DNA from: Thermoflexus sp.
Lineage (GTDB): Bacteria > Chloroflexota > Anaerolineae > B4-G1 > SLSP01
DNA length: 33,989 nt
Direction: 5' to 3'
Assembly (NCBI GenBank): GCA_020722365.1
Contig: DYKY01000014.1
Location: forward strand, 1 to 33,989
In this document: one piece after another, positions 3,666 through 7,680 of the stretch
Layout of the letters: each line of letters opens with the position of its first letter
How positions within the stretch are numbered: the first letter of the stretch is position 1
Notes under the pieces: model-generated
Told to the model about the DNA's origin: nothing
What the model saw: the letters and a program-made list of their open reading frames with translations, nothing else
The model's database searches: none
Translations under genes and position numbers: made by a program

Positions 3666-3719
3666 ATTCCTTACTCCTTACTCCATACTCCTTACTCCTT
3701 ACTCCCTACTCCCTGCTCT
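3616..3719. repeat. Period-7 array (GGATTTT type followed by TTACTCC type)
   Basis: AGATTTT GGATTTT CGATTGC GGATTTT GGAGGGG GGATTCG TCATTCA... then TTACTCC TTACTCC ATACTCC TTACTCC TTACTCC CTACTCC CTGCTCT. Confidence 0.9.
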
Positions 3720-5557
3720 GGGCACTCCCACTCCGCCGTCCACGTCCCCGGATAATTGACGAGGATACCGCAGGCGTGGCAGCTCTCGCGGCAGTCGCTG
3801 AGCAGCTCGCCGGCCTGGCTGCGGCGGTAGTCGCGCTGGAAGAAGCGCTTTTCGACGCCGCTGTGCAGGTGATCCCAGGGAAGCGGCTCGTCCTCGGCGC
3901 GGGGGCGGTAGAGGGCATCGTCTACGTCGAAGCCGGCTTCGTCGAACGCGCGCTCCCACGCTTCGGGGCTGCGCCATTCATCCCAGGCATCGAAGCGTGC
4001 GCCATTGCGCCACGCCGCTTCGACGACGACATTCAGTCGCCGGTCGCCGCGCGCCAGCAGCGCCTCGAGGCGCGTGCCGTCGTACTGGTTCCAGGAGAGG
4101 CGCAGACCGCGCCCGCGCAGGCGCTCGCGCAGCAACGCTTGCCGCCGCTCGACCGTGGCGCGGTCGGCCAACGGCGCCCATTGAAAGGTGGTGTGCGGCT
4201 TGGGGACGAAGGTGCTCACGCTGACGTGAATCTCCGTCTTGCGCCCGCCGATGTCCAGCCCCAGGCGGCGGACGCGGTGCGCCAAATCGATGATGGCCTC
4301 GATGTCCTCGTCCGTCTCGCCGGGCAGGCCGAGCATAAAGTAGAGCTTGAGCGTGCGCCAGCCGCGCGTGAAGACCTCGGTTGCCACAGCGAGCAGATCC
4401 TCGGTGGCGATGTCCTTGTTGATGCGGCGGCGCAGCGCGTCACTGCCCGCCTCCGGCGCGAAGGTGAAGCCGGAACGCCGGCCCTGCGCGAGCATATCGG
4501 CCAAATCCACCGAGAACGACTCAATGCGCAGGCTCGGCAGCGAGATGGAGACGTGACGGCCCTTGAAGCGGTCCAGCAGCGCCTCCAACAACGGCTTGAT
4601 TTCGCTGTGGTCGGCGGAGGAGAGCGAGAGCAGGGCGACCTCTTCGTAGCCGGTGGCGTCCAGGATGGCGGAGGCGCTTTCGACGATTTCGGCGGCGGGG
4701 CGCTCGCGCACAGGGCGCGTGATCGCGCCGGCCTGGCAGAAGCGGCAGCCGCGCGTGCATCCCCGCTGGATTTCGACCACGGCGCGGTTGTGCGTCACTT
4801 CCACGTTGGGGACGAGTTGGCGGACGGGGGTGGGGGGCAACATGGGCAGCAGCCGTTTGAGGATGCGGGCGGGCGTGGCAGGATCGGTGGGCGTCACTGC
4901 GCCGAATTCGCCGGTCGGTTGGTAAAAGCGCGGGACGTACAGCCCCGGCACATCGAGCAGCGCGCGTAATTGGGCCTCACGCGGGAGATGGCGATGCGCG
5001 CGCCACGTGTCGATCAGCTCGAGAAAAACCGCTTCCGCTTCGCCGATGACGAACACGTCGAAGAAGTCCGCGACCGGCTCCGGATTGAACGTCCCGTGCC
5101 CCCCGCCCACGATGAGCGGGTGCGTCGCGTCGCGGTCGGCGGCGCGCAGCGGGATGCCGGCGAGGTCGAGCAGTTCCAGGACGTTGGTGTAGAGTTGCTC
5201 GTAAGCTGTGCTGATTGCCAAAATATCGAAGGCGGCAACCGGGCGATAGCTTTCCAGCGTGTAGAGCGGCAAGTGTGCCTGCCGCATCTGGGCGATCATG
5301 TCCGGCGCGGGCAGATAGGTGCGCTCCGCCAGGATGTCGGGCTGCGCGTTGAGCAGGTCGTAGAAGATGGCGAGGGCGAAGTTGGACATCCCCAGTTCGT
5401 AAATGTCGGGGAAGGCCAGGCAGATGTGGGTGTCCGTAGTCTCCCACGGTTTGTGGATGGCGTTATACTCACCGCCGACGTAGCGTCCCGGTTTTTGCAC
5501 GCGGTGGAGCAGCGCTTCGATGGTTTCCCAGGGGATGGGGTGGTATGTGTTGGTCAC
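3692..5557 (-). CDS. TIGR03960 family B12-binding-domain radical SAM protein
   Basis: 621 aa; VEIQRGCTRGCRFCQAGAITRPVRER (CxxxCxxC), SLPSLRIESFS, FAPEAGSDALRRRINK, FMLGLPGETDEDI. Confidence 0.9.
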   Translation of the reverse strand: MTNTYHPIPWETIEALLHRVQKPGRYVGGEYNAIHKPWETTDTHICLAFPDIYELGMSNFALAIFYDLLNAQPDILAERTYLPAPDMIAQMRQAHLPLYTLESYRPVAAFDILAISTAYEQLYTNVLELLDLAGIPLRAADRDATHPLIVGGGHGTFNPEPVADFFDVFVIGEAEAVFLELIDTWRAHRHLPREAQLRALLDVPGLYVPRFYQPTGEFGAVTPTDPATPARILKRLLPMLPPTPVRQLVPNVEVTHNRAVVEIQRGCTRGCRFCQAGAITRPVRERPAAEIVESASAILDATGYEEVALLSLSSADHSEIKPLLEALLDRFKGRHVSISLPSLRIESFSVDLADMLAQGRRSGFTFAPEAGSDALRRRINKDIATEDLLAVATEVFTRGWRTLKLYFMLGLPGETDEDIEAIIDLAHRVRRLGLDIGGRKTEIHVSVSTFVPKPHTTFQWAPLADRATVERRQALLRERLRGRGLRLSWNQYDGTRLEALLARGDRRLNVVVEAAWRNGARFDAWDEWRSPEAWERAFDEAGFDVDDALYRPRAEDEPLPWDHLHSGVEKRFFQRDYRRSQAGELLSDCRESCHACGILVNYPGTWTAEWECPEQGVGSKE

Positions 5558-5566
5558 GATGACACG

Positions 5567-5994
5567 TTAGCCACTGGCGACGTCGCGCACGACTTTGATC
5601 CAGACTGTCCGCCATCGCGGGCCGTCGAATTCGGCGGGGAAGACGCCGCGCCAGCCTGCTGGCGTCGCCATTGGCCCATATGCGGCCGGCGCTCCTGCAC
5701 GAAGATGAAGTGGTCGCTGCCGAGGAGCACGGATTTGATGTGCGCCGTGGAGTTGCCTTCGCTGTGGCGGTAGGGTAGGCCCTCCGGCGCGATGCGCTCC
5801 AGAAGCATGGCGATATCGCTTTCGACGTCTGGGCCCCAGTTTTCGTTGAGCACGATGCCCGCCGTGGTATGGGGGCAGTAGATGAAGCACATCCCCTCGT
5901 CAACCTCAGCGTCCTGGACGACCCGCTGTATTTCGGCGGTGATGTCGATAAAATCGGCCTTCGCGCGCGTCGGAATCTCTATCTTTTTGAACAT
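5567..5994 (-). pseudogene. yjbQ: Secondary thiamine-phosphate synthase / UPF0047 YjbQ, frameshifted at about 5649-5665
   Basis: Frame 1 gives MFKKIEIPTRAKADFIDITAEIQ...GMCFIYCPHTTAGIVLNENWGPDVESDI...HMGQW; the conserved C-terminus RGVFPAEFDGPRWRTVWIKVVRDVASG* is in another frame. Assembly error not excluded. Confidence 0.7.
5649..5665. repeat. 17-bp palindromic insertion (CGCCAGC-CT-GCTGGCG)
   Basis: On the minus strand, TGGCG-ACGCCAGCAGGC-TGGCG; removing 17 bp between the TGGCG repeats restores the yjbQ frame. Confidence 0.7.
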
Positions 5995-6003
5995 CGTACC
6001 TCT

Positions 6004-7680
6004 CTACGTCAAAAAATCGCGCAATTTACGGCTGCGGCCCGGATGGCGGAGTTTACGCAGGGCCTTCGATTCGATCTGCCGGATGCGCTCGCGGGTGACG
6101 TTGAACGCCTGCCCGACTTCTTCGAGCGTGTGCGGACGTCCGTCCTTGAAGCCGAAGCGCATTTCGAGCACTTCGCGCTCGCGGCGGCCCAGTTCGCCCA
6201 GGATGTGTTGCAGTTGCTCGCGCAACATCTGCATCGAGGTGGCGTCCATGGGGCCGGGAAGGTTGTCATCCTCGATGAAGTCGGACAGCTCGCTGTTGTC
6301 TTCCGTACCCACGGGGCTTTCCAGCGACATCGGCTCCTGGGAGATGCTGATGATGCGGCGCACTTTGAACATTGCCCGGCGCAATTTGCGATCCAGGACA
6401 GGTGAGAGGGGCAGGTTCTCGGCGCGCGCCTGCGTGATGGCGACGATGTCTTCCGGTTCGAGCACCTCCATTTCCAGGGCCAACTCATCGAGGTTGGGAT
6501 CTCGCCCGAGTTCCTGCATCATCCGCCGTTGGATGCGCATCAGGCGGTTGATGGTCTCGACCATGTGGACGGGGATGCGGATGGTGCGCGCCTGGTCGGC
6601 GATGGCGCGGCTGATGGCCTGACGAATCCACCACGTTGCATACGTCGAGAACTTGTAGCCGCGCATGTAGTCGAATTTCTCGACGGCGCGCAGCAGGCCG
6701 ATGTTGCCTTCCTGGATCAAATCGAGGAAGGAGACGCCACGTCCTACGTAGCGCTTAGCGATATTCACCACCAGCCGCAGGTTGGCGCGCACCAGCATCT
6801 GTTGCGCTTCGGCGGCCAGCACCTCGACGCGCTCCCACCAGGCAAACACCGAATCGGGGTAAGTGTGTGCGCGGATCTGGGTCGTTGTCGGCCAACGGCT
6901 ATTGACGTCCATCTTATCGTGGATGTACTGGACCAGTTCGGGCGGCAACAGGTACAGGTACATTGCCGCGCGGAGCAGTTCCAGGATAACGGGCCGCCAA
7001 CGTGGATCATCGCCCCACTGGTTGGGGCCCATGTAGGTGTAGAGGTTCGAGGCTTTCTCGGCGATGAGCACCTGTTGCTGTTGCAAGATTTCCCCCAGGA
7101 AATCCGTAACTTCTGGGGTGCCAAGGTCGTTTTTCCGGGCTATGCGCTGGCTTTCGTTCCACGCAGTGCGGGCTTGTTTGTAGAGATCCAGGACGTTGGA
7201 CTCCATGGCCTCAGGTTCATCCGCCGTGGCAACCGTCTGGCAAATAAGACCCAACTGCGCGACGGCCTCACGAATGATGCAGAGCCAGACTTCCTGGTAC
7301 GGTTCGAGGAGATCGACGCGCCCGATTTCGCGCAAGTACATCCGCACCGGATCATCGACCAGGTCCTCAACAATGATGGGCTTGGATGACTCCTCCTCGA
7401 TTTCTTCAAGTTCATCCGGCGAGGGTTCGTCTTCCCAAGCCTCATGGTCCTCATCGGCCATATCGTTGTGCCCGAAATCGACTCCTTCTGCGTTGACTTC
7501 CGCTTCGCTGTCGCCGCTGTAAGCATCTTCCTCCCAGGCAAACTGCCCGGCATCATCATGGAGATTGTGCGCGTCCTCCGGTTCATGCACGGCTGTGTTA
7601 TCCGGTTCTTGCGGGACGCGGACCGTGGGGGCGCGGCCCGTGGGTACATGGGCATTGGCTGTTCGTTGCCTAGGTGACAT
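6004..7680 (-). CDS. rpoD: RNA polymerase sigma factor, RpoD/SigA family
   Basis: [12 protein letters not shown] (1.2), [55 protein letters not shown] (2.x), [20 protein letters not shown] (4.2); AGGAGGAAT upstream. Confidence 0.95.

Follow-up and report, generated by a model that had tools for sequence, protein, structure and literature searches.

Probable frameshift decay of yjbQ in a Thermoflexus genome through a small complex indel with a palindromic insert

The yjbQ gene in the window, by which we mean the whole 33,989-nucleotide stretch of Thermoflexus DNA analysed here, is broken by a small insertion, and we consider it probable that the gene is a lineage-specific frameshift pseudogene. 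A complex small indel with a net gain of 17 bp would have struck the W109–Q110 codons in one species. Translation would then leave the native frame after W109 and add a 37-residue tail, removing the conserved C-terminal segment (QGVF-AEFDGPR-...). With this segment gone, the protein is, judging from its sequence, most likely non-functional.

The disrupted gene, a common one of housekeeping type (UPF0047/TIGR00149), occupies 5554..5994 on the minus strand. Analysis of open reading frames on that strand gives a 146-residue frame that starts at the ATG at 5994 and ends at a TGA at 5554, and its product consists of 109 native residues followed by 37 out-of-frame residues. This tail, RRQQAGAASSPPNSTARDGGQSGSKSCATSPVANVSS after W109 (example tail peptide QQAGAASSPPNSTAR), has no family match. 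The last 27 native residues are put out of frame by the insertion; the displaced native 3′ end, GVFPAEFDGPRWRTVWIKVVRDVASG, lies in another frame at 5567..5647 of the minus strand and ends in its own TAA stop. The preliminary description had placed the conserved C-terminus, GVFPAEFDGPRWRTVWIKVVRD, in a different frame from the N-terminal part, and the open-frame translation confirms this. Both family profiles recognise the N-terminal part above their curated cut-offs and give out before their own ends: PF01894 scores 101.3 bits (cut-off 27) and its match ends at profile position 97 of 117, and TIGR00149 scores 102.9 bits (cut-off 67.75) with a match ending at position 111 of 132. No single frame of the window gene holds a full-length UPF0047 domain complete with its C-terminal W-Q-G...E-F-D-G segment. 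Solved structures exist for the family (1xbf, 1vmh, 1vmf, 2cu5 and others).

The genes on either side are intact, and the gene order is common to the relatives. Downstream lies a B12-binding radical SAM gene of the TIGR03960 family (3692..5557, minus strand; 675 bits, profile positions 2–599 of 605), and upstream an RNA polymerase sigma factor of the RpoD type (6004..7680, minus strand), assigned by its profile match. The TGA of the yjbQ tail and the GTG that starts the radical SAM gene overlap in GTGA (5554-5557), so that translational coupling between the two genes, if there is any, would outlast the frameshift. Elsewhere in the window, an open frame of 285 residues at 825-1682 has no Pfam match, and its nonsynonymous and synonymous branch-specific codon changes stand at 32 to 7, the reverse of what its neighbours show; the real gene may not be this frame, and the plus-strand frame at 828-1538 may be the coding one.

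At the break, the minus strand reads CCAATGGCGACGCCAGCAGGCTGGCGCGGCGTCTTC. We compared the site with the relatives whose sequence spans it, namely two loci from the same genus (L001, which represents genome G002 here, and L003), two from sister lineages (L004 and L005) and locus L002 of genome G003. In all five the alignment shows a net 17 fewer bases and an unbroken frame, which together with profile matches that stop at the break bears out the preliminary description of yjbQ as disrupted. The net insertion lies within 5649..5670 on the minus strand, inside the near-invariant W-Q-G motif; since TGGCG flanks it at either end, its placement is ambiguous over 5 bp, anywhere between 5670-5654 and 5665-5649. 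The gain of 17 bp thus stands, but it is not a clean insertion. The relatives read TGG-CAG-GGC at the joint, and wherever a single 17-bp insertion is placed, two base differences from them are left over. Nor does deleting 17 bp restore the protein exactly, as had been claimed: the joint residue would be Arg (Q110R, seen in the window copy only) where 60/61 outgroup sequences have Gln. These leftovers point to a complex indel rather than a clean target duplication, and a replacement of about 2 bp by 19 describes the event better. As to the flanking repeat, TGGCG is present on both sides of the insert in the window, and the relatives carry TGGCA at the site.

The insert contains a palindrome, CGCCAGC-AG-GCTGGCG in minus-strand letters, with 7-bp arms and a 2-nt centre; it is exact and present at 5649..5664, as the preliminary description had it. 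The 5-bp flanking repeat reported there does occur at both ends, but its right-hand copy is part of the palindrome, so the repeat and the palindrome are not independent features. When 20,000 arbitrary 19-mers were placed at the site, 2.5% gave a perfect inverted repeat with arms of 7 bp or longer (loop 0-8), and the window holds 38 such inverted repeats, counted as centre and loop combinations. The palindrome is mildly unusual, not remarkable. We found no source for the insert within 100 bp, direct or inverted, better than chance: the best inverted match is 6 nt (GACGCC), random inserts do as well in 23% of cases within 30 bp and in 59% within 100 bp, and no nearby inverted template of the kind expected for a quasipalindrome template switch stands out at either distance. 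The region folds as RNA no better than its shuffles (z = -0.85), with a small hairpin predicted. No Rfam family matches the site at E up to 1, and there is no promoter or terminator at the insert; the sole terminator-like site in 5300-6300, at 6020-6036, is at chance level.

We compared the conservation of the window copy with that of three genus relatives and 61-62 outgroup sequences. Four further changes are confined to the window copy: D54G (D in 61/62 relatives, G in none), L104P (L in 57/61), L114P (P in 0/61, the position being F, L or Y in all 61) and R122W (W in 0/62). Three of five window-only changes fall at positions conserved in at least 80% of sequences, whereas in the three sisters 0 of 17 branch-specific changes do (Fisher p = 0.006, a value that rests on small numbers and counts in the joint residue). 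Near-invariant sites are altered on both sides of the insertion (D54G and L114P), and the sisters are unaltered there. D54G is upstream of the break, so loss of constraint seems to extend to the whole protein and not to its end alone. This copy of yjbQ therefore appears, from its substitutions, to be decaying. The window branch has too few synonymous and nonsynonymous changes for these counts by themselves to prove relaxed selection. The decay, if real, would be recent, given that the displaced 3′ frame can still be recognised and has stayed open.

The palindromic shape of the insert had suggested a micro-element, or a member of a palindromic repeat family, inserted into yjbQ, and we regard this as very improbable. 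CGCCAGCNNGCTGGCG occurs once in the 3.95-Mb genome, which answers the earlier proposal to search the genome for the palindrome, and the further hits that appear when up to 3 mismatches are allowed fall within long open frames and have unrelated flanks. With one mismatch at most, each of the four genus genomes has the 14-bp core between 8 and 17 times, a similarly low count whether or not the insert is present, and its reversed control once; in these genomes the core is thus a frequent coding word rather than an element. Multiple copies sharing sequence beyond the core, as a dispersed REP- or MITE-like element would leave, were not found in the genome. At the level of copy number, flanks and core counts, a repeat family is refuted. 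That a transposable element duplicated a 5-bp target (TGGCG) on insertion and left 12 bp of its ends as a footprint on imprecise excision is a little less improbable but still very unlikely. TGGCG does flank ACGCCAGCAGGC on either side. Its right copy, however, lies in the palindrome and its left copy outside, so that the repeat and the arms misfit the ends of one element; the family sequence at the site is TGGCAGGGC, which makes TGGCG probably not the original target; and a non-exhaustive search of the genome identified no element with such ends.

The preliminary description also raised a reversible switch. The 17-bp palindrome might be gained and lost in the population, or ribosomes might bridge it by −1 frameshifting, so that yjbQ would yield either the tailed product or a full-length YjbQ lengthened by about six residues. 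The native frame would indeed be regained by a −1 shift at the insert, and a hairpin is predicted, though with the unexceptional fold score given above. We hold this to be highly doubtful: the joint has no slippery heptamer (read by eye), and there are no flanking inverted repeats, no repeat tract, no invertible element and no second or nearby copy to switch with, while the near-invariant residues changed on both sides of the insert speak against a function kept up in an ON state. An artefact or a mixture of strains deserves more weight than any of these, although we still judge it unlikely. The 17 bp could be misassembled, or could belong to a minority strain in a binned metagenome whose majority gene is intact; the draft genome is in 249 contigs with 2.95% estimated contamination, and the partly self-complementary insert has a form that can arise from hairpin-related errors. 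Against this, the insertion is the only frame-breaking indel within the conserved genes compared in the alignable parts of window 0-12 kb (blastn against the genus relatives). The remaining odd-length indels there lie in spacers or form adjacent pairs that cancel out, so the assembly is not generally error-prone here, and the neighbouring genes carry no other disrupting indel. The changes at D54 and L114, outside the joint, likewise point to a real decaying copy.

Decay of the window yjbQ was probably tolerated, because the same genome carries a second, intact YjbQ paralogue. This second UPF0047 gene (G000, C75:5612-5962) matches profile positions 1-117 of 117 at 123 bits. Every one of the 24 family genomes examined has a UPF0047 gene, and within the genus a second full one is found in the window's genome only (1/4 genomes). 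The C75 protein shares 83-87% identity with the full-length second copies of other genera and 32% with the window copy. C75 is no obvious contaminant, as it carries a clpB-like gene with 81-88% identity to its counterparts in the genus relatives. Genome G003, otherwise without the second paralogue, holds a degraded remnant of it on C374 (L119 1164-1378) that covers the last 21 residues at 86% identity. YjbQ of E. coli has a thiamine phosphate synthase activity by which it rescues thiE mutants (Morett et al. 2008, cited in PMC3091646); the main function of YjbQ is not established, and PMC7954711 lists it as unknown. We considered ThiE as a functional backup and rejected it: a ThiE-like (TMP-TENI, PF02581) match is found in 0/4 genus genomes (G000-G003) vs 11/14 control genomes. 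The candidate backup is therefore the second YjbQ, and the two paralogues are probably redundant. Thiamine phosphate synthesis in the genus may hang on YjbQ or on uptake.

In sister genera the second paralogue itself resembles an attB site at which a serine-integrase element would insert. Two genomes, G011 and G014, have it cut after the M-H-I-T codons (CAYATNAC), and a large serine recombinase gene starts just inside the cut (L114, G011:C184, 3678-5001, with PF07508 and PF13408; L116, G014:C137, 3316-4267, with PF13408). Remnants of its 3′ end restart at or near H-I-T-A/S-S in G008, G011, G013, G014 and G018, where they stand beside or apart from full copies of the gene (L112 711-1016; L113 3-212 and 272-577; L111 4739-5056; L115 4692-5018; L117 3-56 and 219-512). 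An arm such as GTGTAACTCAATTG follows the cut, and CAATTG precedes some remnants. In the window's genome the second yjbQ is uncut.

For the window gene, the most likely cause would be a replication or repair error that produced a small complex indel, and the palindromic shape is compatible, as a suggestion, with template switching or hairpin-associated repair, although no template was found. Mutations by template switching at inverted repeats have been described in E. coli lacZ reporters (PMC7202029) and in yeast coding genes (PMC8604942), and a hairpin origin of quasipalindrome-associated mutations in PMC8794818. The case has little import beyond this genome, as an example of gene decay by a small indel with one full-length paralogue left. 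It does illustrate that a palindromic insert with a short flanking repeat is not by itself proof of an element or a switch.

Compared with the YjbQ/UPF0047 family, the first 109 residues of the window protein fit the whole N-terminal part and the gene sits between the rpoD and radical SAM genes as in the relatives, but the C-terminal 27 residues are replaced. As in quasipalindrome template-switch mutations, the product is a short inverted repeat within a gene; unlike in those, the insert has no local template beyond chance. A further likeness is to bacterial frameshift pseudogenes that have a paralogue, with which the window gene shares a small lineage-restricted indel, altered conserved residues, intact neighbours and a second full-length family member, and from which it differs in that its indel is complex (net +17 bp) and palindromic rather than a homopolymer slip.
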